Positions 12,422 through 58,804 of a stretch of 64,000 bases of DNA are shown one piece after another. The stretch spans positions 62,001 to 126,000 of the forward strand of contig NZ_JAAIXY010000026.1 in assembly GCF_010894455.1 (NCBI RefSeq), written 5' to 3'. Under the pieces are notes generated by a model that worked only from the letters and a program-made list of their open reading frames with translations, searched no databases and had not been told where the DNA came from. Numbering within the stretch: the stretch's first letter is position 1; every line of letters starts with the position of its first letter. The stretch is from Myxococcus eversor (lineage in GTDB: Bacteria > Myxococcota > Myxococcia > Myxococcales > Myxococcaceae). Made by a program: the position numbers and the translations under genes.

Positions 12422-13081
12422 ATGAAGACAGCAGCGAGCAGACGGTTCCGCGTGCGTGCCAGCGGCCCCGTGGCGTGCTTCACGCGGCCGGAGATGAAGG
12501 CCGAGCGGGTCAGCTACGAGGTCATGACTCCCTCGGCGGCGAGGGGCGTGCTGGAGGCCATCCTGTGGAAGCCGGCGATTCGCTGGCACCTCCACGAAAT
12601 CGCCGTCCTGAATCCGGTGAAGTGGACGAGCTTCCGCCGCAACGAGGTGAACAGCCGCGCGGTGGTGGGGAAGTTCGACTACGCGGCGGATGAGGACCGC
12701 GCTCAGCGCAACACGGTGGCGCTGCGTGACGTGGACTATGTCCTCACCGCGTCCTTCACGCTGGTGCCCGGCAAGGCGGGCGCCGAGGACAACGTCCGCA
12801 AGTTCGAGGAGATGTTCGAGCGGCGGTTGGAGAAGGGCCAGTTCTTCCACGCGCCGTATCTGGGATGCCGCGAGTTCGACGCCCGGGTGGAGCCCGCCGG
12901 GGAGGACTTGAGTCCCTCGGAGGCGAGCCTGGGACGCAGACCTTTGGGGCTCATGTTCTACGACTTCGCCTTCGGTGACGCGGCGGCGCGGCCCCTGTTC
13001 TTCGACGCGTACCTGGACCACGGCGTGCTCCAGGTGCCGACGTGGGAGCAGGTGCTGGAACGAAATGGAGGTCCGTCATGA
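12422..13081 (+). CDS. cas5c: Cas5c (type I-C Cascade subunit and pre-crRNA endonuclease)
   Basis: This 219-residue RAMP protein has the type I-C Cas5 pattern: an early RVRASGPVACFTRPEMKAER stretch and YEVMTPSAARGVLEAILWKP, then the conserved EIAVLNPVKW and the late YLGCREF. In type I-C, Cas5c replaces Cas6 as the pre-crRNA processing nuclease, which fits the lack of a cas6 gene here. The ATG at 12422 follows a GGAGG at 12412-12416. Its stop overlaps the cas8c start as ATGA. Confidence 0.95.
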   Translation: MKTAASRRFRVRASGPVACFTRPEMKAERVSYEVMTPSAARGVLEAILWKPAIRWHLHEIAVLNPVKWTSFRRNEVNSRAVVGKFDYAADEDRAQRNTVALRDVDYVLTASFTLVPGKAGAEDNVRKFEEMFERRLEKGQFFHAPYLGCREFDARVEPAGEDLSPSEASLGRRPLGLMFYDFAFGDAAARPLFFDAYLDHGVLQVPTWEQVLERNGGPS

Positions 13082-14829
13082 TGCTCACGGCGCTCAACGA
13101 CTTCGCGCTGGAGCGGGGGCTCATGGATGACCCGCTTTATGAGACGCGGCCCGTGGACTTTCAGATTCGGCTGAGTCCGGAGGGCAAGTTCCTGGGTCTG
13201 GTGCCCACACAGGATGAGCGCGGGAAGGGTCTGCCCGTGCTGATTCCGCGCATTCCCCAGCGCTCGGTGAACATCGCGGCGGGCTTCGCGGTGGACAACT
13301 CCAAGTACGTGCTCGGGCATGAAAAGGAGGAGCCCTCCGCACGCGCGGGAAAGGCGGGGAAGGGCGCGGTGCGCTTCGTGGCCTTCTTGAAGCTGCTGCG
13401 CGAGGCCGTGGCCCAGACGGACGTGCCCGAGCTGCGCGCCGTGGAGGCGTTCCTCGCGAACGAGAAGGCGCGTGCGAAGGCGCTCGCGGAGCGGCCCGAA
13501 GACGAGTGGACCGGGTCGGAGATGCTCGCCTTCGTCGTCGGGGACTCCGTCACGCCCGTGCACCAACTGCCGGAGGTTCGCGCGTGGTGGGAGCGGCGAG
13601 GCGAGCAGGCGGCGGCGCTGGGGCGCACGGGGCTGTGCCTGGTGAGTGGCCGGAACGCGGTGCTGGCGGAGACCCATCCCAAGCTCAAGAACGTTCCCCA
13701 GGCGCAGAGCTCGGGCGCTTCTCTGGTGTCCTTCAACGCGAACGCGTTTGTGTCCCATGGGCTCGAACAAGGAGAGAACGCTCCCATCTCCCAACAGTCG
13801 GCGTTGGGCTACACGCTCGCGCTGAATGACCTGCTCCGGAAGTCGGAGGAGCGCCGTTACCGACAGGGCATCCAGCTCGGAGAAGACTCGGTGCTGGTGT
13901 TCTGGACGAACAGCACCGCGGAGCAGGAGAGCCTGTTGCTCAACTGGGCGGACCCCACGGAGGAGACCCTCCGCCGCTTCCTGGAGGCGCCTCGGCGCGG
14001 ACTGGAGCCGGGGGAGCTGGACGAGCGGAGCTTCTATTCCGTGACGCTCGCGGGCAACTCCGGCCGCGTCGCCGTGCGCGACTGGTTCCAGACGAGCGTC
14101 GGTGAGGTGAAGCGAAGCCTCCGCCGCTACTTCGAGGACCTGCGCCTGGGCGAGGCGAAGACGGACCAGCCCATCCCGGTGTGGCGACTGCTCAAGGCCG
14201 TGGAGGCGCCTTCGGGCAAGGGGCTGTCTCCGGACCTCGCCACCCGGATGATGGGGGCCGCGCTTCGGGGACATCCGTTCCCGCGCCAGCTCCTCTCCGC
14301 ATCCCTGGACCGACTCCGGCTTCCTCCCGCCGACGGGAAGCTGGAGCGAGAGCAGCTCCGTCTTCGTGTCGCGCTCATCAAGGCCACCCTCATTCGCAGC
14401 CATGCCTTTTCTCAGGAGGTCACCGTGTCATTGGACAAGAACAACCGGCTCCAGCCGTACGTCCTGGGCCGTCTCTTCGCCGTGTTGGAGCGCTTGCAGG
14501 CCGTGGCGTTGGGGAGCGACCTCAACTCCACCATCCGCGACCGTTACTTCGCCTCGGCGTCGCGCACGCCCGCGCTGGCCTTCTCCCGACTGCTGCCGCT
14601 CTCCGTCCATCACGCCGCCAAGGCAGGTGACGAGGGCAGGTGGCTGGAGCGGACCAAGTCCGAGGTGATGGCCCTGGTGGAGCCCGACTTCCTGCCCAGC
14701 GTCTTCGACCTCAACGCGCAGGGCCTCTTCGCGGTGGGCTACTACCACCAGCGCGAGGCGTTCTTCTCCAAGCGCACGCCCTCCGAGTCCAAGCCTCCGA
14801 AGGGCGAGCCTTCCGACTCCGCCGACTGA
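13078..14829 (+). CDS. cas8c: Cas8c/Csd1, large Cascade subunit
   Basis: The 583-residue protein matches Csd1 in length and pattern: PLYETRPVDFQIRLSPEGKF at the start region, FAVDNSKYVLGHEKE, then LVSFNANAFVSHGLEQGENAPIS, which is very characteristic of the family. This subunit recognises the PAM and stabilises the R-loop. In type I-C, an internal start within this gene often also makes the small Cas11 subunit; I could not identify such a start with confidence. The start at 13078 overlaps the cas5c stop by 4 bp. A second ATG follows at once at 13081. Confidence 0.96.
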   Translation: MMLTALNDFALERGLMDDPLYETRPVDFQIRLSPEGKFLGLVPTQDERGKGLPVLIPRIPQRSVNIAAGFAVDNSKYVLGHEKEEPSARAGKAGKGAVRFVAFLKLLREAVAQTDVPELRAVEAFLANEKARAKALAERPEDEWTGSEMLAFVVGDSVTPVHQLPEVRAWWERRGEQAAALGRTGLCLVSGRNAVLAETHPKLKNVPQAQSSGASLVSFNANAFVSHGLEQGENAPISQQSALGYTLALNDLLRKSEERRYRQGIQLGEDSVLVFWTNSTAEQESLLLNWADPTEETLRRFLEAPRRGLEPGELDERSFYSVTLAGNSGRVAVRDWFQTSVGEVKRSLRRYFEDLRLGEAKTDQPIPVWRLLKAVEAPSGKGLSPDLATRMMGAALRGHPFPRQLLSASLDRLRLPPADGKLEREQLRLRVALIKATLIRSHAFSQEVTVSLDKNNRLQPYVLGRLFAVLERLQAVALGSDLNSTIRDRYFASASRTPALAFSRLLPLSVHHAAKAGDEGRWLERTKSEVMALVEPDFLPSVFDLNAQGLFAVGYYHQREAFFSKRTPSESKPPKGEPSDSAD

Positions 14830-14868
14830 CCCCGCTTCCGCTTCCACCCATTCCAGAGAGAGAACGCC

Positions 14869-15783
14869 ATGACCGAGCTCAAGAACCGCCACGACTTCGT
14901 CCTGTTGTTCGACGTCCAGGACGGCAATCCCAATGGAGACCCCGACGCGGGCAACCTGCCGCGCATCGACCCGGAGACGGGCCACGGGCTGGTGACCGAC
15001 GTGAGCCTCAAGCGCAAGGTGCGCAACTTCATCCAGCTCACGCAGGATAAGAAGCCAGGGTTCGACATCTTCGTGAAGGAGAAGGCCATCCTGAACGTGT
15101 CCATCAACGACGCGTACAAGGACCTGGGCATCGACCTGAACGAGAAGCCCAAGGTGGAGAAGGACGGCAAGAAGCGCGACACCAAGGGAAAGGCCCAGGG
15201 CTCAGAGGTCGAGAAGGGGCGCGAATGGATGTGCAAGACGTTCTTCGACGTCCGTACCTTTGGCGCCGTCATGTCCACGGGCCCCAACGCGGGGCAGGTG
15301 CGTGGACCCGTGCAGCTCACCTTCGCCCGCTCGGTGAGTCCCATCGTTTCGCAGGAGCACTCCATCACCCGCATGGCCGTGGCCACGGAGGCGGAGGCGG
15401 AGAAGCAGGGCGGTGACAACCGCACCATGGGGCGCAAGAACACCGTGCCCTACGGGTTGTACCGCGCGCATGGCTTCATCTCGCCGCACCTCGCGAGGCA
15501 GACGAAGTTCAACCAGGCGGACCTGGAGCTGCTGTTCAAGGCCTTCGCGAACATGTTCGAGCTGGACCGCAGCGCCGCGCGAGGGCTGATGTCCATGCGC
15601 AAGGTCATCGTCTTCAAGCACGGCTCCGAGCTGGGCAACGCGCCCGCGCATGCGCTGTTCGACCGCGTCCATGTCGAGCCCGTGCAGCCGGAGAAGCCCG
15701 CTCGGGCGTTCAAGGACTACACGGTGAAGGTGGACACGGCGAAGCTACCCGAGGGCATCGAGGTGATGGACCTGGCGGGATGA
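14869..15783 (+). CDS. cas7: Cas7/Csd2, Cascade backbone subunit
   Basis: The 304-residue RAMP protein polymerises along the crRNA. Family signatures are the N-terminal [59 protein letters not shown] and [16 protein letters not shown] purine-rich site (AGAGAGAG) lies upstream of the ATG, 39 bp after cas8c. The stop overlaps the cas4 start as ATGA, so translation is probably coupled. Confidence 0.97.
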
Positions 15784-16427
15784 GCGACGCTCGCGAGACC
15801 TGGGTGGCGCTGTCCGCCTTGCAGCACCTGTTGTTCTGCGAACGGCAGGCGGCGCTCATCCATGTCGAGCAACTGTGGCGGGAGGATGTGAACACCGCCC
15901 TGGGCCGGCTGCTCCATGAGCGGGTGGACCTTCCGGGGCATGACGCCCGGCCGGGCTGCCGCGTGGAGCGCGCGGTTCGGCTGGGGTGCTCGCGGCTGCG
16001 TGTCTCAGGCCGCGCCGACCTGGTCGAGTACCACCCGGACCCCGCCAGTCCCATGGGCTGGCGGCCGTACCCGGTGGAGGTGAAGCGCGGGCGGCGGAAG
16101 TCGCACGACGCGGACGCCGTGCAGCTCTGCGCCCAGGCGCTGTGTCTGGAGGAGATGCACGGCGTCGAGGTTCCCGAGGGTGCGCTCTTTCATGGCGCGG
16201 AGCATCGGCGACGGGCGGTGCTCTTCGATGCGCGACTCCGGGCTCGGACGGAGGAGGCCATCGCGAGGATGCATGAGCTGCTGGCGCGACGGTGCGTGCC
16301 CGTCGTGCCGAGGGCGCCGAAGTGCGCGGCGTGCTCGCTGGAGCCGATGTGTCTGCCCCAGGTCACCGCGGGCCAGCGGAGTGTCTCCGAGCACTTGCGG
16401 CGGATGGTGGAGCCCGTGGACCCCTGA
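15780..16427 (+). CDS. cas4: Cas4, Fe-S RecB-like nuclease for spacer processing
   Basis: The 215-residue protein has the RecB nuclease motifs, with D80 in GRADLVEY and E100-x-K102 in YPVEVKRG, followed by Q115. The four iron-sulphur cluster cysteines are C20 in LLFCERQ and C182, C185 and C191 near the C terminus. Cas4 trims prespacers and helps select PAM and orientation during adaptation with Cas1-Cas2. It overlaps cas7 by 4 bp and cas1 begins 37 bp later. Confidence 0.95.
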
Positions 16428-16464
16428 AGCGCGGGCCCTGACGTGTCACTGGAGGAGGACTGGC

Positions 16465-17493
16465 ATGACGACCGCGCTCAATACGCTGTTCATCACCGTG
16501 GAGGGCACCCGCCTGAACAAGGAGGGCGAGCGCGTGGTGGTGACGATTCAGGACGAGAAGAAGGCGGAGGTGCCATTGCGTCATCTGCGCTCGGTGGTGT
16601 GTCTGGCGCGTGCGTGGATGACGCCGGAGCTCCTGGAGAGCTGCGTGGAGGCGGGGATTCACGTGTCGTTCTTCGGGATGACGGGGCGATTCCTGGCGCG
16701 AGTCGAGGGGCTGCCTGGCGGCAACGTGCTGCTGCGGCGTACGCAGTTCCGCGCCGCGGATGACGGGGCTCGTACGCTGGCCATCGCTCGGGCGATGGTC
16801 GTGGGGAAGTTGGGGAATGCTCGCCAGTTCCTCTTGCATGCGCGGCGGGACGCGGCGGAGGAGCGCAAGGCGTCGCTGGAGGAGGCGGCTCGGCGACTGT
16901 CTGGTCATCTTCGCGCGCTGGAGCGGGCGGATGACCTGGACCAGGTGCGAGGGCTGGAGGGCATCGCGGCGCGGGACTACTTCGAGGTGTTCCCTGATTT
17001 GTTGAAGGGTGATGCTCGGCGGTTCGTGTTCGATGGTCGGAACCGGCGGCCTCCGAGGGACCCGCTGAATGCGCTGCTGTCCTTCGGGTATGCCCTGCTG
17101 GCGCAGGACTGCGCGGGGGCGCTGGCGGGCGTGGGGCTGGACCCGGCGGTGGGGTTCCTCCATGAGGACCGGCCTGGGCGGCTGTCACTCGCGCTGGACT
17201 TGATGGAGGAGCTCCGCGCGCCCGTGGTGGACCGGTTGGTCTTCTCACTGGTGAACCGGGGGCAGCTCAAGCCGGAGGACTTCAAGACGGAGGCGGCGGG
17301 AGCGGTGATGCTCAAGGACGACGCGCGCAAGACGTTCCTCGTGGCGTACCAGGGCGCGAAGCAGGTCGAGGTCCAGCATGTGTTCCTGGGGCAGCAGACG
17401 AGTTGGGGGCTGGTTCCCCATCTGCAGGCGTTGCTGCTGGCTCGAGCGCTCCGGGGCGAGCTGGATGGCTATCCGCCCTTCGCGGTGCGCTGA
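16465..17493 (+). CDS. cas1: Cas1 integrase, type I-C
   Basis: This is the 342-residue integrase that inserts spacers with Cas2. The metal ligands are visible: E165 in LEGIAARDYF, H233 in VGFLHEDRPGR and E248 in LDLMEELR. The start at 16465 is fixed by GGAGGAGG at about 16451 and by the family N terminus LNTLFITVEGTRL; longer upstream frames overlap cas4. The stop TGA shares its last base with the cas2 ATG. Confidence 0.97.
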   Translation: MTTALNTLFITVEGTRLNKEGERVVVTIQDEKKAEVPLRHLRSVVCLARAWMTPELLESCVEAGIHVSFFGMTGRFLARVEGLPGGNVLLRRTQFRAADDGARTLAIARAMVVGKLGNARQFLLHARRDAAEERKASLEEAARRLSGHLRALERADDLDQVRGLEGIAARDYFEVFPDLLKGDARRFVFDGRNRRPPRDPLNALLSFGYALLAQDCAGALAGVGLDPAVGFLHEDRPGRLSLALDLMEELRAPVVDRLVFSLVNRGQLKPEDFKTEAAGAVMLKDDARKTFLVAYQGAKQVEVQHVFLGQQTSWGLVPHLQALLLARALRGELDGYPPFAVR

Positions 17494-17792
17494 TGCGAAA
17501 GGTCACTGTGCTCGTGTGTTACGACGTCCGGGTCTCCGATGCGGACGGGCCACGCCGGCTCCGGCGGATTGCTCGGGCGTGCAAGGACCATGGGGTCCGG
17601 GTGCAGTATTCGGTCTTCGAGTGTGTGCTGGAGCCGAAGGACTGGGTGGTCTTGCGCGCACGGCTGCTCGCGGAGCTGGATGATGCGAGCGACAGTCTGC
17701 GGTTCTATTTCCTGAGCGAGGATGTGGCTCGGAAGACGGAGCACCATGGCGCGAGGGTGCCGTTGGATGTGGAGGGACCGCTCATCCTGTGA
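17493..17792 (+). CDS. cas2: Cas2, adaptation subunit
   Basis: The 99-residue ferredoxin-fold protein dimerises between two Cas1 dimers. It has the typical first strand with VLVCYDVRVSD (conserved Asp), RRLRRIARACKDHGVRVQYSVFEC and the C-terminal RFYFL. It overlaps cas1 by one base and is the last gene before the leader. Confidence 0.96.
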   Translation: MRKVTVLVCYDVRVSDADGPRRLRRIARACKDHGVRVQYSVFECVLEPKDWVVLRARLLAELDDASDSLRFYFLSEDVARKTEHHGARVPLDVEGPLIL

Positions 17793-17996
17793 GGGGCTCG
17801 CGTGCCCGGATTGGGGCGCGCGGACCTGTGCCGGTGTGGGCTCCGTCGGAGGTTCGCGTTCTTTGAAATCTCCAATAGGATTCAGAGGTTGCGCGGGGGG
17901 GCTCGGTGAGCGCCGGGTTTGGGGTCGCTCGTGGGGAGTTGGGTTCGCGCGAAGCGGCTGGATTCCCTTGGAGTTCTGGTAGCTTGGACGGGCAGA
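17793..17996 (+). promoter_or_regulatory. CRISPR leader
   Basis: These 204 bp lie between the cas2 stop and the first repeat. The stretch is less GC-rich than its surroundings, for example TTCTTTGAAATCTCCAATAG near 17858. By position it should hold the pre-crRNA promoter and the Cas1-Cas2 integration signals. I could not define a -10/-35 pair with confidence. Confidence 0.75.
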
Positions 17997-20900
17997 GTCG
18001 CTCCTCGTGACCGCGAGGAGCGTGGGTTGAAACAACGATCATCAGCGTGTAGTGGTGCATGTGCGTAGTCGCTCCTCGTGACCGCGAGGAGCGTGGGTTG
18101 AAACACGAGTGGGACGCGCCGACGGGCCCACTGGGCGGTCGCTCCTCGTGACCGCGAGGAGCGTGGGTTGAAACGCCATCATCGCCACGCCAAGCACTCG
18201 GCTGGTGTCGTCGCTCCTCGTGACCGCGAGGAGCGTGGGTTGAAACGTAGTGGTGCTGGCCGTGCTGCTCGTGCTGGGCGGTCGCTCCTCGTGACCGCGA
18301 GGAGCGTGGGTTGAAACGAAAACGTGCGGCGCTCCGACGTGGCGCGGCAGAGTCGCTCCTCGTGACCGCGAGGAGCGTGGGTTGAAACTACAGCGACGGC
18401 AGCCAAGTCTACTCCGTGGGCTCGTCGCTCCTCGTGACCGCGAGGAGCGTGGGTTGAAACTGCCTAGTTAGGACAAGGGCCGTATTCACCTCGGTCGCTC
18501 CTCGTGACCGCGAGGAGCGTGGGTTGAAACATCAAGCGGAACACAGAGGGAACCCCGCAGGCCAGTCGCTCCTCGTGACCGCGAGGAGCGTGGGTTGAAA
18601 CGTCGCAGCCGCCTGCGCCGTCCCCACTGCCGTCTGTCGCTCCTCGTGACCGCGAGGAGCGTGGGTTGAAACTCGAACTGCTCAGCGAACGTGCGCATCT
18701 TCCGTCGTCGCTCCTCGTGACCGCGAGGAGCGTGGGTTGAAACGACGCGTGGCGCATGGAATTCGGCGCGTGGGCGCTGTCGCTCCTCGTGACCGCGAGG
18801 AGCGTGGGTTGAAACCGCCGCTGGGACGCGGCCACTGGCCACCTCAACGTCGCTCCTCGTGACCGCGAGGAGCGTGGGTTGAAACTGCGCGGCGGTGATG
18901 AGGTATCGACGGCCGGTGAGTCGCTCCTCGTGACCGCGAGGAGCGTGGGTTGAAACTGCCTGCCGGAGCACTCCAGCAGGCCGTCGGGGCGTCGCTCCTC
19001 GTGACCGCGAGGAGCGTGGGTTGAAACTGCCGTGCGAGACGAAGGACCATGGGCGCGCCAGGTCGCTCCTCGTGACCGCGAGGAGCGTGGGTTGAAACGC
19101 TCGGGACACGGAGCAGACGCTCATCGCCCGGGTCGCTCCTCGTGACCGCGAGGAGCGTGGGTTGAAACTGTTTCAACAGCTCGGCGTCGTCGAAGTCGCC
19201 GAGGTCGCTCCTCGTGACCGCGAGGAGCGTGGGTTGAAACAAGGACACGCCGTCCGGCTGGGCGCAGCGCTGGGTCGCTCCTCGTGACCGCGAGGAGCGT
19301 GGGTTGAAACCCGCAGTCCCATTGAGGTCCGCATGGCGTGTCAGTCGCTCCTCGTGACCGCGAGGAGCGTGGGTTGAAACCTCTCGCGCCTGGCGCGCTC
19401 CTCCTCGGCGGTGGGTCGCTCCTCGTGACCGCGAGGAGCGTGGGTTGAAACGATGCATTGGCGCGCGGGGACGTCAACGAGCCCCAGTCGCTCCTCGTGA
19501 CCGCGAGGAGCGTGGGTTGAAACCGAACATGGTGACTCCGCGGGTGACTGGGTGAGGTCGCTCCTCGTGACCGCGAGGAGCGTGGGTTGAAACCATTGGT
19601 GGGAGCCACGTTGTCGTCTGCACCAAGTCGCTCCTCGTGACCGCGAGGAGCGTGGGTTGAAACGAGGAAATCTGGCTGGTGCGCAACCGGCTGGAGGTCG
19701 CTCCTCGTGACCGCGAGGAGCGTGGGTTGAAACACCGTTTTGACGCTCGCCCACCCGTCAGGGGCCGAGTCGCTCCTCGTGACCGCGAGGAGCGTGGGTT
19801 GAAACCGCCGAGACGCCTTGCAGCGAGCGCACCGAACCGTCGCTCCTCGTGACCGCGAGGAGCGTGGGTTGAAACTGGAGGCCACCGAGCTCGTCCCTCG
19901 CGGCCCGGGTCGTCGCTCCTCGTGACCGCGAGGAGCGTGGGTTGAAACCGGATGTCTGTGAGCCCGAACCCATGGAAGGTGAGTCGCTCCTCGTGACCGC
20001 GAGGAGCGTGGGTTGAAACAGGCCGAGCTCCAGGCGGACCTGACGCGCACCCAGGTCGCTCCTCGTGACCGCGAGGAGCGTGGGTTGAAACGCGGGTCCC
20101 GAGCTTGCTACAGACGTAGTCGCTGTGTCGCTCCTCGTGACCGCGAGGAGCGTGGGTTGAAACGAATCGTGGGCGCGCGGACAGCAAGAGGCAGACGAGT
20201 CGCTCCTCGTGACCGCGAGGAGCGTGGGTTGAAACGCGTCCATGGACCAGAACATCCTGCTGCTCTGCCGGTCGCTCCTCGTGACCGCGAGGAGCGTGGG
20301 TTGAAACTCCACAAGCGCCCCAGGGCACGCCCCACCGAGGTCGCTCCTCGTGACCGCGAGGAGCGTGGGTTGAAACACCAGATCGCGCCCACCTGGAGCG
20401 GGAGTTGAAGTCGCTCCTCGTGACCGCGAGGAGCGTGGGTTGAAACTGGCTCGCCAACTTCAGCATCTGGAGGGCACGGTTGTCGCTCCTCGTGACCGCG
20501 AGGAGCGTGGGTTGAAACACGTCCAGCCCTGCCAGGAAGACGCCGTTCTCGTCGCTCCTCGTGACCGCGAGGAGCGTGGGTTGAAACCAGCTCGCGGAGT
20601 CGAATCGTGAGACTGTCGTAGTGGTCGCTCCTCGTGACCGCGAGGAGCGTGGGTTGAAACGGCGGCGTGCCGTTGGAGCAGGTGGTGGTCCAGTCGCTCC
20701 ACGTGACCGCGAGGAGCGTGGGTTGAAACGGGTTCCCGGCAGGGTCCCTGTCGTTGGCGTCCGTCGTCGCTCCTCGTGACCGCGAGGAGCGTGGGTTGAA
20801 ACAGCAATGCGACGCAGTTGGGGCGACGGTGGCTCAGTCGCTCCTCGTGACCGCGAGGAGCGTGGGTTGAAACTCTTCGTCCGTGTAGAAGAGGTAGTGC

Positions 20901-22777
20901 CCGGCCGGTCGCTCCTCGTGACCGCGAGGAGCGTGGGTTGAAACCAGATTCTCACGAAGCAGCGCCAACGCACCCGCAGTCGCTCCTCGTGACCGCGAGG
21001 AGCGTGGGTTGAAACGCTGGCGCGGTGGCGTTGCCCAACGTGGGCATGGTCGCTCCTCGTGACCGCGAGGAGCGTGGGTTGAAACCGGAACGGGACCATC
21101 GTCATCAACGTCGACTCTTGTCGCTCCTCGTGACCGCGAGGAGCGTGGGTTGAAACGCGGTGAAGAACACGTACTTCAGCAGGTTCCGCAGTCGCTCCTC
21201 GTGACCGCGAGGAGCGTGGGTTGAAACCGATTCAGATTAGTGGGCCCCAGTAGTCGTCAGGGTCGCTCCTCGTGACCGCGAGGAGCGTGGGTTGAAACCA
21301 CGTGTTCCCGCGCCGCCAGCGAAGCGCTCCGGTCGCTCCTCGTGACCGCGAGGAGCGTGGGTTGAAACTACGCGGCCCTCCGGGACTGCTACATCGTGTA
21401 CGGTTGCTCCTCGTGACCGCGAGGAGCGTGGGTTGAAACACGGAGGACGACCACTCGGGCCTCGTCAAGTCGCTGGTCGCTCCTCGTGACCGCGAGGAGC
21501 GTGGGTTGAAACTCTTTGGCCGTCGCGATGGTCTGGCGGTACTGCGTCGCTCCTCGTGACCGCGAGGAGCGTGGGTTGAAATCAGCGCGTCAGCACCGGC
21601 AGGAGCGCGTCGAGCAGTCGCTCCTCGTGACTGCGAGGAGCGTGGGTTGAAATTTCACAGCGCTGTCAGCCGTCAAGTCGCGCAGGTCGCTCCTCGTGAC
21701 CGCGAGGAGCGTGGGTTGAAATGCCAACAACCGGACCACGGAGCTCTGGGTCGGACGCGTCGCTCCCCGTGGCCGCGAGGAGCGTGGGTTGAAACGTGGC
21801 GTCCAAATCGCCACGGAGGGCCAGACGCAGGTCGCTCCTCGTGACCGCGAGGAGCGTGGGTTGAAACGTGGCGCTCCAGCAGAGGAGCTTTCCCGCCGCG
21901 AGGTCGCTCCGCGTGACCGCGAGGAGCGTGGGTTGAAACCACGAACGTCAAGGCCGCGTCGGGAGTCATTGGTCGCTCCGCGTGACCGCGAGGAGCGTGG
22001 GTTGAAACTACCGTCAGAAGCCCGGGTACGTGCGCGACCTGGAGTCGCTCCGCGTGACCGCGAGGAGCGTGGGTTGAAACGGCAGTCGGAATGCCGCCCC
22101 CAAGTGGTACGAGGTCGCTCCTCGTGACCGCGAGGAGCGTGGGTTGAAACTCGCCGCCCATGGGGGCCGGGACGCTGACGTCGTCGCTCCTCGTGACCGC
22201 GAGGAGCGTGGGTTGAAACCGCCACCAGGTGCTGCACGTCGCGCTAACGGACGTCGCTCCTCGTGACTGCGAGGAGCGTGGGTTGAAACCAGGAGCTTGA
22301 TCGAGCCGGAGCCGGTCGAGTCGCTCCTCGTGACTGCGAGGAGCGTGGGTCGAAACAAGGGATTCGCGTCCGACGCGCAGTCGAGACGGCGTCGCTCGTC
22401 GTGACCGCAAGGAGCGTGGGTTGAAACTGCGATCAGGGCGGCAGCCACCTCTGGGTGGTGCGTCGCTCCTCGTGACCGCGAGGAGCGTGGGTTGAAACCA
22501 GAAGCTTGATCGAGCCGGAGCCGGTCGAGTCGCTCCTCGTGACAGTGAGAAGCGTGGGTTGAAACGAGCACGCCTCTTACCTGCTGCGTAAGTACAACGG
22601 TCGCTCCTTGTGACCGCGAGGAGCGTGGGTTGAAACGCGTTGGTGCCCGCCTCCGTGCCGCGTTGGCGCAGTCGCTCCTCGTGACCGCGAGGAGCGTGAA
22701 TTGAAACTGGCTGGCCTCAAAGTCCGCCGACAGGAGTCGCGTTGCTCCTCGTGACCGCGAGGATCGTGAGGAGTCTT
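17997..22777 (+). CRISPR. Type I-C CRISPR array, 68 repeats and 67 spacers
   Basis: The 37-bp repeat begins GTCGCTCCTCG and ends GTGGGTTGAAAC. Its inner 24 bp fold into a 9-bp hairpin (CGCTCCTCG / CGAGGAGCG, loop TGACCG). I located 68 repeat starts one by one, from 17997 to 22741, at spacings of 67-73 bp, giving spacers of 30-36 bp. The first ~38 repeats are essentially identical. From 20693 onward variants appear, and the last repeat (22741-22777) has lost its GTTGAAAC end, which marks the trailer. The leader end faces cas2. Long antisense frames across the array (reading ...HAPRGHEER...) are translation artefacts of the repeat. Confidence 0.98.
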
Positions 22778-42981: not shown

Positions 42982-44115
42982 TCAGCTCGCGGGGTCCTCC
43001 TCCGGCAACAGCCTGTCCTCCAGCACCTCCTCGGGAGACTCCCCGGCCTGTACGCGCAGAGAGGCGTACCTCAGGCCCGTCACCTCCGCGAGCGCGTCCG
43101 CGCGTCCGAAGACGAGCCCCGCGCGGCGCGCGTACAGCCGCAGCGTGCGCGCCAGCTCCGCGCCGGTGCCGAAGCGCTCCTCTCGCTCGGGCGCCAGGGT
43201 GCCTCGCAGGAGCGGCTGGAAGGCCACGGGCACCGCGCGCAGCGCGTCCTCCAGGTCCTCGCGGCTGTAGGCGCGGATGCGACGGCGCAGCTCCCGCGCC
43301 GCGGCCAGGCTGACGGCCTCCTGCATGGCCGAGTCCAGCGCGTGCACCTCCTCCGCGCTGTCCTGGGAGAGGGCCCGCTCGCGGCGCTGGCGGCGCTCCG
43401 CCTCGAAGCGGTCCGCGCCCTCGAAGAGGTGTCGGCCGGTGAGCAGTTGGAGCAGCACCAGCCCCAGGCTGAACAGGTCCGCGCGTCCGTCTAACGCCTG
43501 CCGCGCGACGTGCTCGGGGGCGGCGTAGGCGAGGCTGGTGGGGTGCTCCTGCGCCTCCGGAGCGCCGGAGAGCGTGGACGACGCGGCGCCGAAGTCGAGC
43601 AGCTTCACCGCGCCGTGCTCGGTGATGAGGATGTTGTGGGGACCGACGTCGCGGTGGACGACGCGCAGCGGCCGGCCGTGCTCGTCGGTGAGGGTGTGCG
43701 CGTGGTGCAGCGCCTCGGCGACTTCGGCGGCGACGTAGAGGGCGAAGCCCTCCGTGAAGGGCAGGTGGGCGCGGGCAGAGGCCTCCATGAGCGAGTCCAG
43801 CCGGTGTCCCGGGGTGTGCTCGAAGACGAGCACGGGCGCGTCATCGGGACCCTTCAGGTCATGCACGCTGACCACGTTCGGGTGGTGCAGGAGCGCGGTG
43901 AGCCGCCCTTCCTCCAGGAGCCGGTGCGCGGCCTCGGCGCGCAGTGGACGCTTGATGACCGCGTAGCCTCCGAAATCCGACTCGTAGCGGCGGCGCGCGA
44001 GGAGCAGCTCCCCGTGGTGCGCGGCGCCCAGCGACTTGACGAGCTCATATGAGGCGCGACCGGAGCGCAGCAGCACATGCGGCTGGGCGGAGGCGTCGGA
44101 CGACGGGGGCGACAT
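42982..44115 (-). CDS. Eukaryotic-like Ser/Thr protein kinase
   Basis: The 377-residue kinase has the catalytic Lys in YAVIKRP, the loop HRDVGPHNIL (with Gly instead of the usual Lys/Arg after HRD-V), DFGAAS and the APE motif YAAPEHV. It lacks a clear Gly-rich loop (LGAAHHGELLLA) and has no membrane segment. The C-terminal ~90 residues are helical, with no known sensor. The catalytic HRD-DFG-APE set suggests activity. The ATG at 44115 follows AGGAGAG; the ATG at 44130 is less likely. Target is unknown. Confidence 0.88.
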   Translation of the reverse strand: MSPPSSDASAQPHVLLRSGRASYELVKSLGAAHHGELLLARRRYESDFGGYAVIKRPLRAEAAHRLLEEGRLTALLHHPNVVSVHDLKGPDDAPVLVFEHTPGHRLDSLMEASARAHLPFTEGFALYVAAEVAEALHHAHTLTDEHGRPLRVVHRDVGPHNILITEHGAVKLLDFGAASSTLSGAPEAQEHPTSLAYAAPEHVARQALDGRADLFSLGLVLLQLLTGRHLFEGADRFEAERRQRRERALSQDSAEEVHALDSAMQEAVSLAAARELRRRIRAYSREDLEDALRAVPVAFQPLLRGTLAPEREERFGTGAELARTLRLYARRAGLVFGRADALAEVTGLRYASLRVQAGESPEEVLEDRLLPEEDPAS

Positions 44116-44228
44116 GGCGACTCTCCTCATGACGGACGGACCCGACGGGCCCGCGGACTCACTCGGAGAGTATGGTCGTCCTCCGGCGGGAAGTCACCTC
44201 ATGGGTAGTGTCCGCCCCGGCCGCTGCT

Positions 44229-45812: not shown

Positions 45813-46709
45813 ATGCATGGGGCTGACTCCGAGTCCTTCGAGTGGGTGTTGCGGTCCGCGGGCGAGTCGTCCTCCGCCCGCCTGCGCGACGCTCCGGGCG
45901 CCAGGGAGGCCGTGGAGCGGGCCTTCACCCAGGCCGCTTCGCTCTCCGCCGCCGCGCCCGAGCCGCGTGCCTTCGCTCGACACCTGGGGGCCTGGCTCTC
46001 GCGGGCGGGGGACCCGGTGCTCGCGTTGGAGCGACTGCATGCGCGGGATTTCGCGCTCGCGCTCGCCTGCGCCGAGGGACTGCCGGCGGCCACCACGCTC
46101 CTGGAGCAGGAGGTCCTCCTCGCGCTGCGCGTTCCGCTGTCTCGCATCCATCCCTCGCCGGTGTTCGTGGACGAGGTGCTGCAGGTGCTCCGGGCGAACC
46201 TCTTGATGCCTCGCGCGGACGCGCCCTCGCGGCTGCTGGGTTACGCGGGCGTGGGCCCGCTGCTGCACTGGGTGAGTGTCTCCGCGGTGCGGCTGGCGTT
46301 GAGGATGCGCAAGGCTCAAGGAGAAGAGTCCCTGGTCGATGCCGAGGTGCTCGCCGCGCACCCTTCGCCGGGAGGGCTGGAGCTGGGCTTCGTCCGGGAG
46401 GAGGCGCGGGGACACGTGCGCGCGGCCTTCATCCGCGCGGTGGCCTCGCTGGATGATGAGGACCGGGAGTTGTTGCGACTGCACTTCGTGGAGCGACTCT
46501 CGCTGGAGCGGATGGGCGCGCTGTTCGGCCTGCACAAGTCCACCCTGTCGCGTCGGCTCTCCTCGGTGCAGGCGCTGTTGGAGAAGCGGACGCGTCGCGC
46601 GCTCTCCGAGCGGTTGGCACTGCCCGAGCCGGAAGTGGACAGCCTGATGCGCGCCATCCATGGACGGTTGGATTTGAGCCTCTCGGGACTGCTGGCGGCG
46701 CGCGAGTGA
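45813..46709 (+). CDS. Sigma-70-like factor of the myxobacterial TIGR03001 type
   Basis: The 298-residue protein has the N-terminal variable half, then region 4-like HTH: AVASLDDEDRELLRLHFVERLSLERMGALFGLHKSTLSRRL. This combination fits the TIGR03001-like sigma family that accompanies zinc-finger/Ser-Thr kinase proteins in myxobacteria. Its last codons overlap the GTG start of the kinase gene as GTGA, so production of both is coupled. It should be held inactive by its partner until signalled. Confidence 0.8.
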   Translation: MHGADSESFEWVLRSAGESSSARLRDAPGAREAVERAFTQAASLSAAAPEPRAFARHLGAWLSRAGDPVLALERLHARDFALALACAEGLPAATTLLEQEVLLALRVPLSRIHPSPVFVDEVLQVLRANLLMPRADAPSRLLGYAGVGPLLHWVSVSAVRLALRMRKAQGEESLVDAEVLAAHPSPGGLELGFVREEARGHVRAAFIRAVASLDDEDRELLRLHFVERLSLERMGALFGLHKSTLSRRLSSVQALLEKRTRRALSERLALPEPEVDSLMRAIHGRLDLSLSGLLAARE

Positions 46710-49700
46710 GCTGCCCGGACGAGAACACGCTCTCGGGATATGCGAGCGGCGGGCTGGACTCCGAGGGCACCGAAGCCGTGCGCCAGCATGTCTCCGGCTG
46801 CTCGGAGTGCCGGAGCGTGCTCGCGGTGCTGGGCGGGTTCCAGACGCCGTCACCGAGGGTCGACGCGGGGCTGCTCGTCACGGGCGCGCGCGTGGGGCGC
46901 TACATCGTGCTGGGGCTGCTCGGTGAAGGAGGCATGGGGCGCGTCCATGCGGCGTATGACCCGGAGCTGGACCGCAAGGTGGCGCTCAAGCTGCTGAACC
47001 TCGCGCGGCTCGGGGAGGGCTCGCTCACTCAAGCGCGTCAGCGACTGGAGCGCGAGGCGCGCACGATGGCGCGGCTGTCGCATCCGCACGTGGCCCACCT
47101 GCATGACGTGGGCGAGTTCCAGGGGCAACTCTTCCTGGTGATGGAGTTGGTGGAGGGAGGCACGCTGCGGCGGTGGTTGTCGGAGAGGCCGCGCACGCGC
47201 CGGGAAATCCTCGCGCGCTTCATCCAGGCGGCGGACGGGCTGGCGGCCACCCATGCGCTGGGCATCAGCCACCGCGACTTCAAGCCCGACAATGTCCTGC
47301 TGACGCGCGACGGTCAGGTGCGCATCACCGACTTCGGTCTGGCCAACGCGGCGGTGCTGGAGCCGTCACTGGGGGAGGTGCGCATCATCGACGTTGGCCC
47401 GGCCAACGCGGCGACGGGAGAGCCGTCACGGGGCGAAGTGCGCATCACCGACGTCAGCCCGACCAGCGCGGCGACACTGGAGCCGTCACGAGAAGCAGAG
47501 CCACTCGTCCCCGGCACGGAGCCACTCACCGTCACCGGAGTGTTCCTGGGGACGCCCGCGTATGCGGCGCCAGAGCAGCTTCAAGGAGCGCGCGGTGATG
47601 CGCGTTCGGACCAGTTCGCCTTCTGCGTCGCACTGTACGAGGCGCTCAACGGACAGCGGCCCTTCGCGGGCGCCACGAGCGAGGAGTTGCTCGCGTCCAT
47701 GCTGCGCCAGGAGGTGCGTCCCGAGAAACGGAGCGTGCCCTCGTGGCTCAAGGCCGTCGTCCGACGAGGACTCCACGCGGACCCGTCGCGGCGCTTCGAG
47801 TCCATGCAGGTGCTGCGCTCCCGCCTCTCGCAAGAATCAAGCGCCTGGAAGCGCAGCGCCGTGGCGGCGGTGCTCGCGGGAGGACTGGTGGGTCTGGGGT
47901 TCCTCGTGTTCAGCCCTTCCTCGGCGACACCGAGCGAGGCCTGTCAGGGCAGTGAGCGGCACCTGGCGGGAATCTGGGACACGTCCGTGCGCGAGTCCAC
48001 GCATCTGGCCTTCCTGAGAACGGAGGACCCGTTGGCCGAGGCCTCGTTCCAGGCCGTGGCCTCCACGTTGGAGCGGTGGACGCGGGACTGGACGCTCGCG
48101 CATCAGTCCGCATGCGAGGCGACGCGCGTCTTCGGTGAACAGTCGGAAGCAGCGATGGGGCTGCGCATGACGTGCCTGGACCAGCGGCTGGGAGAACTGT
48201 CGCGACTGACGGTGGCGCTGCAGGGCGCGGACGCGCGGACGGTGGAGCGGGGCTTCAGGCTGGGGACCTCGCTCGGTGGCGTGAGCCGCTGCGCGGACGT
48301 GCGCACGTTGCAGGAGGCCGTGTCTCCACCAGAAGACCCGACGGTGCGCGCGGAGGTGGACGCGGTACGCGCCGAGCTGGCCCGGGCCAACGCGGAGCTG
48401 CTCGCGGGCCACACCTCGGAGGCGCTGCGCATCGCACTGCCCGCTCGAGCGCGCGCCCTCGCCACGCGGCATCGACCCCTGGAAGCGGAGGCGCATCAGC
48501 TCTGCGCGCTGTTGCAGGAGGACGCGGGTGCGTTCGAGGACGCGCGCGCATCACTGGCCCAGGGCTCGCTGGCGGCAGAGGCGGGGCGACACCTGGGCGT
48601 GCTCGCGCGGGTGCTGAAGTCCCAGGCCTGGCTGCACGGGTACGGCCTGGGGCGCACCCCGGAGGCGTGGCCCTTCCTCCAGCGAGCACGGGCCGTGGCG
48701 GAGACGCTGCGAGACGCCGAGCTGGATACGATGCTGGACCACGTGCAGGCGGAGTTGCTGGAGCAGGAGGGCCGCTTCTCGGAGGCGGAGCCGCTGCTGC
48801 GTGCCTCGCTGGAGACCGCCACCACGCGCGGACAGACGCACGCGCGCGCGGAGCTGAGCGGCCGGCTGGGCCTGCTCGCGCGGCAACAGGGGCGCCTCTT
48901 GGAGGCGAAGCGCTGGCAGGAGGAGGCGCTGCGGCTGCATGAGGAGCACTTCGGTCCGGCGCACCGGGACACGGGACGGGCCCTCGCGAACCTGGGAGGC
49001 ACGCTGGCCCTCCTGGGCGAGCTGTCGAGGGCCGAGGCCGTCCTCCAGCGCGCGCTCACCATCCTCCGCAAGACGCTGGGCGAGGAGAACCTGTCGGTGG
49101 CGCGGACCTTGTCCAACCTGGCCCTCGTCTACTTCGAGTGGGGACATGGAGCCCAGGCGCGGGAGGCCGCGGACGGGAGCTGGGCCGTGGCGCGCAAGAG
49201 CGTGGCCGCCGACAGCCCGGTGCTGATGGGGATGGCGTCCAACCGGCTCGGCGTCCTGGGAGAGCAGGGCGAGCGTCCGCTGGAGCTGGAGCATGTCCGA
49301 CGCGTCCTCGCGCATCGCGAGCGTGTCTATGGCGCTTCACACCCGGAGGTGGCCCTCGATGTCCACGAGGTGGGCAGGCTGCTGCGCCTCTTGGGGCGTC
49401 CGGATGAGGCGCGAGGCTTCCACGCGCGCGGCGTCGCGCTCCAGGAGCCGCTGCTCGCCAAGGGCGAGATGGATGGCGCGGGACTGCGCTCCCTGGCGGA
49501 TGCCCAACTCTTCCTCGGGAAGGTGGACGAGGCGCGGCGTCACGTGGATCAGGCGCTCGCGAGCATGGAGCGCGATTTGGGCCCCTCCTCGTCCGAGCGA
49601 ATCGAGGCGCTGCTCCTCCTGGGAGACGTCCAGCTCGCGCGAAGTCAACCCGCCGAGGCCCTGGCGCCGCTGCGCACCGCGCTGGAGGTGCTCACGGCCC

Positions 49701-49897
49701 GGCAGGTGAGCTCCGCGCGAGTTCCGAGAGTTCGTCGTCGGCTCGCGCGAGCGCTCCGGTTGACGGGCGCGACGCAAGAGGCCTGCGCGGAGGCGCACCG
49801 TGCCTGGGAGGAGCTGGCTCCGTGGAGCAAGGCCTACGCCCAGGAGACGGCGGAGGCGCGGGCCGAGTTGGGGCACTGTCGACAAGTTGTGCGTTGA
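46706..49897 (+). CDS. Zinc-finger / Ser-Thr kinase / TPR protein with triplicated DFG segment
   Basis: The 1063-residue protein starts with a zinc anti-sigma-like motif (C3, H28, C32, C35), then a kinase with Gly loop LGEGGMGRV, Lys in VALKLL (K95), HRDFKPDN (D192), DFG (D210) and APE (about 289-291). Three copies of a 20-residue segment (206-265) replace the usual DFG-to-activation-loop stretch. A transmembrane helix lies at 385-404, so the kinase is cytoplasmic and the C-terminal TPR repeats are periplasmic. With its coupled sigma factor gene it suggests a membrane anti-sigma kinase. The start GTG overlaps the sigma stop. Confidence 0.88.
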   Translation: MSCPDENTLSGYASGGLDSEGTEAVRQHVSGCSECRSVLAVLGGFQTPSPRVDAGLLVTGARVGRYIVLGLLGEGGMGRVHAAYDPELDRKVALKLLNLARLGEGSLTQARQRLEREARTMARLSHPHVAHLHDVGEFQGQLFLVMELVEGGTLRRWLSERPRTRREILARFIQAADGLAATHALGISHRDFKPDNVLLTRDGQVRITDFGLANAAVLEPSLGEVRIIDVGPANAATGEPSRGEVRITDVSPTSAATLEPSREAEPLVPGTEPLTVTGVFLGTPAYAAPEQLQGARGDARSDQFAFCVALYEALNGQRPFAGATSEELLASMLRQEVRPEKRSVPSWLKAVVRRGLHADPSRRFESMQVLRSRLSQESSAWKRSAVAAVLAGGLVGLGFLVFSPSSATPSEACQGSERHLAGIWDTSVRESTHLAFLRTEDPLAEASFQAVASTLERWTRDWTLAHQSACEATRVFGEQSEAAMGLRMTCLDQRLGELSRLTVALQGADARTVERGFRLGTSLGGVSRCADVRTLQEAVSPPEDPTVRAEVDAVRAELARANAELLAGHTSEALRIALPARARALATRHRPLEAEAHQLCALLQEDAGAFEDARASLAQGSLAAEAGRHLGVLARVLKSQAWLHGYGLGRTPEAWPFLQRARAVAETLRDAELDTMLDHVQAELLEQEGRFSEAEPLLRASLETATTRGQTHARAELSGRLGLLARQQGRLLEAKRWQEEALRLHEEHFGPAHRDTGRALANLGGTLALLGELSRAEAVLQRALTILRKTLGEENLSVARTLSNLALVYFEWGHGAQAREAADGSWAVARKSVAADSPVLMGMASNRLGVLGEQGERPLELEHVRRVLAHRERVYGASHPEVALDVHEVGRLLRLLGRPDEARGFHARGVALQEPLLAKGEMDGAGLRSLADAQLFLGKVDEARRHVDQALASMERDLGPSSSERIEALLLLGDVQLARSQPAEALAPLRTALEVLTARQVSSARVPRVRRRLARALRLTGATQEACAEAHRAWEELAPWSKAYAQETAEARAELGHCRQVVR
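47318..47497 (+). repeat. Three in-frame 60-bp tandem repeats in the kinase gene
   Basis: Three units, at 47318-47377, 47378-47437 and 47438-47497, each encode VRI-[TI]-D-x(3)-[PL]-x-[NS]-A followed by EPS. The first holds the true DFGL; the others read DVGP and DVSP. They insert 40 residues into the activation segment. Confidence 0.9.
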
Positions 49898-57817: not shown

Positions 57818-58804
57818 ATGCGCCAGTGCTTCAGCCGTTTCGAGTCCCGTCCGTCCTTCCTTCGTGAATTGACCGCGTGGGGGTTGCCCGCGCTCCTGAG
57901 CATCACCATCGGATGCGGCCCGGCGGGGCTGGGAGGGGGCGAGCCGAGCGAGTCCCTGGGCGCCCACGAAGACGGCCTGGTGTCGATGAATGGCTTGTCG
58001 ACGAACGGGCTGAGCACGAACGGTTTGTCGACGAACGGGTTGAGCACGAATGGCCTGTCGACGAACGGTTTGTCGACGAACGGGTTGAGCACGAATGGGG
58101 TGTTCAATACATGGTTCACCGCCAATCCAGCCGAGGCGGAAATGCTGATGCGGTATGTCGCCCGCTGTGCATTGTCTTCAAATCAATCCCTGACGTACAC
58201 TCATGGCGGAACGACGTACTCATGGCCCGGCGCGTTGGGGCTGGCGCCGGGGTGGACGGGGAGCGCGTCGGGCTCGCAGCCGCAGCCGGCGACGGTGGCG
58301 GAGCAGCAGGTGGTGTCCGCGTGTCTGGCGGCGCACGCGAACAAGTTCGGCGTGCACGTGAACATCTCCGTGCTGGGCAAGGGCGCGACGAACGTGGCGA
58401 TTCCCTCCAGCACGGAGGAGATGCAGCTGTTCAGCCAGAAGGAGGCGTGCTTCTTCGGCAACCTCTTCAACAACGAGGGCCTCTTCGCGGCCAACGACAC
58501 CAGCTACCTGGCCTATGACCAGAGCACGGTGCGCACCTGCGGCCTGTCGTCGTGGAGTGGCGACTCCGCGTGCGCGCCCGCGATTACGCACGTGGGCTCC
58601 TGCCTGGACTACTGCCAGCTGGATGCGTCGCGGACGTCGTACAAGAGCTGCACGTTCAACGGGAAGGTGTACCGCCCCATCAATACCCGCATCCGTCCCC
58701 AGGACATCTACCAGTGCGGCGACGGCGTCTGCCAGATTTCGGAGAAGTGCGGCACGGGTGTCACCGCGAACAGCTGCGCGGCGGACTGCGGCGCCTGCCA
58801 GTAG
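57818..58804 (+). CDS. Secreted lipoprotein with NGLST repeats and Cys-rich C terminus
   Basis: The 328-residue protein has a lipoprotein signal ending SITIGC. Seven copies of NGLST follow directly after the linker (about residues 58-92). The remaining part has scattered Cys residues and ends in CGDGVCQISEKCG...DCGAC, a pattern seen in Cys-rich myxobacterial surface proteins. Function is unknown. It is probably displayed on the outer membrane. It is a single-gene unit with the next gene 242 bp away. Confidence 0.78.
   Translation: MRQCFSRFESRPSFLRELTAWGLPALLSITIGCGPAGLGGGEPSESLGAHEDGLVSMNGLSTNGLSTNGLSTNGLSTNGLSTNGLSTNGLSTNGVFNTWFTANPAEAEMLMRYVARCALSSNQSLTYTHGGTTYSWPGALGLAPGWTGSASGSQPQPATVAEQQVVSACLAAHANKFGVHVNISVLGKGATNVAIPSSTEEMQLFSQKEACFFGNLFNNEGLFAANDTSYLAYDQSTVRTCGLSSWSGDSACAPAITHVGSCLDYCQLDASRTSYKSCTFNGKVYRPINTRIRPQDIYQCGDGVCQISEKCGTGVTANSCAADCGACQ
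57989..58093 (+). repeat. Seven tandem 15-bp repeats encoding NGLST
   Basis: Seven in-frame 15-bp units encode Asn-Gly-Leu-Ser-Thr. Codons for Leu and Ser alternate between units (TTG/CTG, TCG/AGC), so the tract was made by duplication of one or two starting units and then drifted. A truncated eighth unit (Asn-Gly) follows. Confidence 0.95.

Follow-up and report, generated by a model that had tools for sequence, protein, structure and literature searches.

How can a kinase carry extra copies of its own catalytic segment, and what does such a kinase do next to a sigma factor gene? The question is raised by a locus of Myxococcus eversor within a stretch of 64,000 nucleotides (assembly GCF_010894455.1, contig NZ_JAAIXY010000026.1, positions 62,001 to 126,000 of the forward strand), which is called the window here and in whose numbering all coordinates are given. 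At this locus, a sigma factor gene overlaps the start of a gene for a membrane Ser/Thr kinase with an N-terminal zinc finger and C-terminal tetratricopeptide repeats (TPRs). The pairing of sigma factor and kinase itself belongs to a known kind, and the unusual feature of the gene pair is the position of a 60-bp repeat inside the activation segment of the kinase. The best explanation as a whole, which is held with moderate confidence, is an operon-coupled pair of sigma factor and receptor kinase with an in-frame repeat array that is tolerated in a disordered bulge of the activation loop.

The array was detected by Tandem Repeats Finder at 47316-47490 (period 60, 2.9 copies, score 231), with its units in frame. 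The span between the DFG and APE motifs of the window kinase is 82 amino acids (aa) long compared with 40-43 aa in single-unit homologs, i.e. about 40 residues extra. This agrees with an earlier note made from the letters of this DNA, which had described three 60-bp repeats inserting 40 residues at the activation loop, and its reading of DFG as changed to DVG in unit 2 and DVS in unit 3 is borne out by the unit peptides. The extra units also contribute Ser and Thr residues. When the 180-bp array was searched for elsewhere in the species' own genome (an 11.4-Mb draft in 124 contigs; E ≤0.001), the only match was to 26 bp of one paralogous kinase, and a dispersed repeat was rejected because the array is otherwise absent from that genome. 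Nor is the array due to chance, because a sister species has a longer version of it: the closest ortholog of the kinase, in Myxococcus qinghaiensis QH3KD-4-1 (L011/L063, 93% identical), has five 60-bp units and a 57-bp unit, six in all. A literature search on tandem repeats and duplications in kinases and on activation-loop inserts gave no repeat array in an activation loop among the matches listed, which is not proof of absence.

The number of units was compared in genome sets that hold one genome per species, and variation in repeat number is therefore known between species only. The 5' part of the gene was matched at E ≤1e-60 in 21 of the 27 genomes of a genus search, while 27 genomes in a set of 100 match the kinase protein at E ≤1e-120 (both sets include the genome of the window species); the closest named relatives are Myxococcus, Corallococcus and Pyxidicoccus. 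In a tree of 28 close homologs (orthologs and a small number of near paralogs; some genomes appear twice) and two outgroup rows, a single unit is present in 26 of the 28, three units in the window species and six in M. qinghaiensis, where the DFG-to-APE span reaches 141 aa; the outgroup rows have spans of 54-56 aa. A pattern search added two more homologs, L248 and L249, each with one unit. All unit lengths observed are multiples of three. The two genes with several units form a sister pair (support 100/100) in a clade of 14 rows (100/100), the other 12 of which are single-unit, with weaker forks between the sister pair and this clade (80/88 and 86/87). The repeat expansion is lineage-specific and, among the homologs compared, confined to two sister species; the variation in repeat number, which the earlier note had thought possible between strains, exists as a difference between genomes, with 1, 3 and 6 units in different species. 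In place of the DFG phenylalanine, which both first units retain, all seven extra units of the two species have valine. Window unit 2 (W2) is nearest to unit 3 of M. qinghaiensis (Q3, 8 differences in 60 bases), followed by Q2 (9) and Q1 (10), and W3 and Q6 have a Pro and a Ser in common within the unit. These likenesses suggest that the ancestor of both species had at least two units and probably three, with later exchange in the sister.

As the two assemblies are draft genomes of 124 and about 90 contigs, an assembly artefact had to be considered as well. It was rejected and its probability is practically negligible, since two separately assembled species have the array with matching unit types, the window units differ from each other pairwise at 13-15 of 60 bases, and in both genomes a gene with a repeat, some 11 kb away, gives the same 984-bp match. 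The count in the sister species may nonetheless be off by one, with its units 2 and 3 differing by one base. The equal match of the distant repeat gene, a comparison of one gene only, also led to the rejection of a general repeat instability in this species pair. The gene in question is an open reading frame (ORF) with an NGLST five-residue repeat at window 57818-58804, which perhaps encodes a lipoprotein and is represented by at least two homologs in each of the 27 genomes of the genus search.

The activation segment controls most kinases of this type, and an insert at this place could be thought to damage the enzyme, so that the protein would be a kind of pseudokinase, kept only for a scaffolding or anti-sigma role. 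The ratio of nonsynonymous to synonymous substitution rates (dN/dS) between the window species and M. qinghaiensis is 0.092 from the kinase start to DFG, 0.165 over the 120 codons after the array and 0.119 over the membrane and later part; the kinase domain is under purifying selection between a three-unit and a six-unit species. Between the two first units dN/dS is 0.176, whereas the seven other unit pairs gave 0.583, 0.808, 0.703, 1.299, 0.392, 0.973 and 0.607. The W2-Q3 pair has 6 nonsynonymous and 2 synonymous differences as opposed to 15 and 40 in the kinase flanks (Fisher p 0.013), and pooling W2-Q3 with W3-Q6 by codon position gave p 0.010. The extra units thus evolve, on small counts, under looser protein-level constraint than the kinase flanks. 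The Pkinase domain, which starts at residue 67 and is matched in two stretches (Pfam, 143.7 bits against a cut-off of 31.7), contains the motifs of Hanks-type kinases, namely HRDFKPDN, the DFG of repeat unit 1 and GTPAYAAPE. An AlphaFold2 model of residues 57-390 from an alignment of 73 sequences has a mean predicted local distance difference test score (pLDDT) of 83.8, with 214 of 334 residues at 90 or above, and all segments with pLDDT below 50 lie within residues 159-222, which cover the insert and the remainder of the loop. The closest solved folds are the PknA and PknB kinase domains (E 1e-22 to 1e-21), from which, in their Mycobacterium tuberculosis form, the window kinase differs by the roughly 40 extra repeat residues in its activation loop.

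A long activation loop is not in itself an unusual trait. The window kinase has 213 matches in its own genome, and from the listed rows 80 kinase regions were picked, which do not make up the whole kinome. With a strict pattern the DFG-to-APE span could be read in 46 of the 80 (26-155 aa, median 32); a loose pattern gave 73 of the 80 (median 30), at least two of which (L169 and L204) overshoot. The span of 155 aa belongs to a kinase at G000:C47:24700-25700 (L177) with an internal repeat score of 4, which is also the highest score in these spans with either pattern, compared with 14 for the window kinase. Damage to the enzyme is therefore highly unlikely: HRD, DFG, APE and the T-loop are kept in both species, the kinase flanks have dN/dS values of 0.09-0.17, and other kinases of the same genome have long spans. 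The claim of the earlier note that the insertion should alter kinase activity does not find support, because the kinase is constrained, its motifs are kept, the insert is predicted to be disordered and long spans without repeats occur at this place in other kinases of the genome. The array would seem to be a tolerated length variant or passenger, which on sequence and model is more likely than damage, with tuning left open.

Tuning would mean that the number of units sets autophosphorylation of the activation loop or the docking of substrates, with slippage rapidly and reversibly shifting the output of the sigma factor. Unit number differs between the sister species, the changes in length are multiples of three bases, the extra units add Ser and Thr, and an in-frame repeat of varying number is also found in tolA of Escherichia coli, where a change in number alters phenotype and stress tolerance (PMC3477136). 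In contrast to tolA, the window units are located inside a kinase activation segment and copy its DFG segment, and their variation is known between species only. With little protein-level constraint on the extra units and a single unit in most close homologs, such a tuner is unlikely, if still worth keeping in mind. Even more doubtful is its extension to an evolvable rheostat, in which the DFG segment would slip between one and six copies and reversibly retune autophosphorylation, and with it the output of the sigma regulon, within populations, while the change from F to V in every extra unit would keep a decoy DFG from competing for the active site.

The array sits in a gene that is tightly joined to that of a sigma factor. 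The GTG start of the kinase ORF (1063 aa) shares the sequence GTGA with the sigma stop codon, in an overlap that the earlier note had seen, and the sigma stop lies inside the same RTGA overlap at 28 of the 29 homologous junctions tested, a set with two genes in duplicate (L063 is the same gene as L011, and L061 the same as L039); the exception is L025, where the sigma stop comes one codon earlier. The sigma factor belongs to TIGR03001 (Sig-70_gmx1), with 287.8 bits over residues 54-294 against a curated cut-off of 154.6, and it resembles this family by score with no difference seen in the sigma factor itself. Its sigma-4 region lies at about residues 204-250, where both Pfam sigma-4 matches remain below their cut-offs, and its profile matches that of AlgU at E 4.4e-10. 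In a structure model (mean pLDDT 80.4, predicted template modelling (TM) score 0.61), the nearest folds are sigma factors of the extracytoplasmic function (ECF) type (sigma E, AlgU, SigK and SigW), though the matches are weak (the best E is 2.7e-3, no E is under 0.001, and the TM-score is 0.27 when normalised by query length), and the sigma-4 part alone fits better (2h27, TM-score 0.78 by target, root mean square deviation 2.0). No paper on gmx1 was found by family name and accession. The pairing of such a sigma factor with a zinc-finger kinase gene was recognised correctly by the earlier note, as were the TPRs in the C-terminal part of the kinase, which TPR_12 matches in five stretches and which are probably periplasmic, judging by a run of hydrophobic residues recognised by eye. 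A second ORF that looks like a kinase, judged by eye from its motifs, lies within 2 kb of the sigma gene (window 42982-44130, minus strand).

The anti-sigma-like zinc motif that the earlier note had placed at the kinase N terminus is matched by zf-HC2 (25.4 bits against a cut-off of 22.2) and has the signature Hx3Cx2C as HVSGCSEC. Class I anti-sigma domains (ASDI) have Hx3Cx2C as their published zinc signature (PMC7406223). The window finger resembles these domains in this motif, in a weak match to the profile of the anti-sigma factor ChrR (E 0.0084, far below cut-off) and in its association with sigma genes, but differs in being fused to a kinase domain. The association extends beyond the adjacent gene at this locus. 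Among 79 related kinase loci, the best of at least 570 by similarity to the window kinase, the motif precedes the kinase domain in 28, and a gmx1 sigma gene is found in the flank of 18 of these 28 compared with 0 of the 51 without the motif (p 4.8e-11); with the five closest loci removed the numbers are 14 of 23 and 0 of 51 (p 1.8e-9). Flanks are short for some loci in both groups. The sigma gene is located upstream on the same strand at 6 of the 18 loci, downstream on the same strand at 8 and divergently at 4 (among loci L059-L137), and therefore the link between finger and sigma factor outlives gene order. In the genome of the window species, 4 of the 5 gmx1 sigma loci above the TIGR03001 cut-off adjoin a finger kinase. 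An anti-sigma role of the kinase finger gains support from these comparisons. The same genome also contains a single ORF in which a kinase N-lobe, with no HRD or DFG seen in it, is fused to the C-terminal half of a gmx1 sigma factor (L045; G000:C10, about 98423-99337, minus strand); this is either a natural kinase-sigma chimera that again links both families or a decayed pair.

Sigma factors beside Hanks-type kinases are known from group ECF43, with the pairs EcfP-PknT and EcfK-PknS. According to two sources (PMC13147305, PMC8999054), ECF43 sigma factors have lost acidic residues of region 2.2 and are activated by phosphorylation; one of them adds that other kinase-linked groups keep these or similar acids and that groups beyond ECF43 may work differently (PMC8999054). 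The window pair could work like EcfP and PknT, with the sigma factor inert until the kinase phosphorylates a Thr of region 2.2 and the finger being only structural, and both the adjacency of the genes and the direct phosphorylation known for ECF43 would fit. The loss of the DxxD acids of region 2.2 together with a conserved Thr, which marks ECF43, is not seen in the window sigma factor: D120, E121 and Q124 each reach 90% conservation or more across 42 gmx1 sequences, and a profile alignment with AlgU, read by eye at an alignment confidence of about 0.7, has Phe118 in the place of the first DxxD acid and E121 in that of the second. As gmx1 keeps this acid and the finger tracks the sigma factor, gating of the ECF43 type is not favoured and is quite unlikely. 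The window kinase also differs from the ECF43 pairs in its zinc finger and TPRs.

In the favoured explanation, the zinc finger would dock or restrain the gmx1 sigma factor at the membrane. On sensing a signal, the TPRs, which are probably periplasmic, would activate the kinase, and the sigma factor would be freed or activated once it, the finger or both had been phosphorylated. The array would be an in-frame minisatellite, created when the β8-DFG segment was duplicated in tandem before the split from M. qinghaiensis. Only unit 1 would form the real DFG site, the extra units being a disordered bulge which the enzyme presumably tolerates, and unequal exchange may later have changed their number to three here and six in the sister.

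Several points weigh against this explanation. The dN/dS value of each single unit pair comes from 4-15 differences, between copies that are not independent of one another, and evidence of purifying selection is not proof that the enzyme is catalytically active. The kinase model was built without phosphates, ATP or a partner. The test of finger and sigma factor ignores kinship, with loci picked by similarity to the window kinase, and 10 of the 28 finger kinases are without a gmx1 sigma gene in the flank examined (at L060, L097 and L129 one or both flanks are short); four further sigma queries at these ten found no sigma gene. In the genome of the window species, one gmx1 sigma gene has no kinase in the flank examined (L042, contig 113) and one finger kinase has no gmx1 sigma gene (L009, contig 51); it is possible that the two are orphan partners.

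The features of the locus are collected in Table 1. Elsewhere in the window, an array of clustered regularly interspaced short palindromic repeats (CRISPR) with the repeat GTCGCTCCTCGTGACCGCGAGGAGCGTGGGTTGAAAC is found at 17997-22707 (associated region 13042-22707); the ORFs upstream of it look like Cas8c, Cas7 and Cas1, and the system is probably of type I-C.

Table 1. Features of the sigma factor and kinase locus in window coordinates.
Feature	Position	Strand	Remarks
Sigma factor gene, TIGR03001 (Sig-70_gmx1)	45813-46709	+	298 aa plus stop; from profile score, fold matches and AlgU profile match
Membrane Ser/Thr kinase gene, N-terminal zinc finger, C-terminal TPRs	46706-49897	+	GTG start; from ORF and domain matches
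zf-HC2 finger with HVSGCSEC (Hx3Cx2C)	46730-46813	+	Kinase residues 9-36; Pfam match and motif
Modelled kinase domain segment	46874-47875	+	Residues 57-390
Repeat unit 1, with catalytic DFG (47330-47338)	47316-47375	+	Peptide VRITDFGLANAAVLEPSLGE
Repeat unit 2, DVG	47376-47435	+	80% identical to unit 1; peptide VRIIDVGPANAATGEPSRGE
Repeat unit 3, DVS	47436-47495	+	77% identical to unit 1; peptide VRITDVSPTSAATLEPSREA
Intact T-loop and P+1 segment LTVTGVFLGTPAYAAPE	47525-47575	+	Downstream of array
Probable membrane helix	47876-47941	+	Hydrophobic stretch near residues 393-411, read by eye
Probable periplasmic part with TPRs	47942-49894	+	TPR_12 in five stretches; location inferred from helix

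The array provides a natural length series of 1, 3 and 6 units in the activation segment of one orthologous kinase, which makes the tolerance or tuning of such loops testable with native alleles. The comparative argument, in turn, points to the zinc finger on these myxobacterial kinases as a sigma-docking module, which would tie individual kinases to particular regulons in genomes that are rich in kinases.

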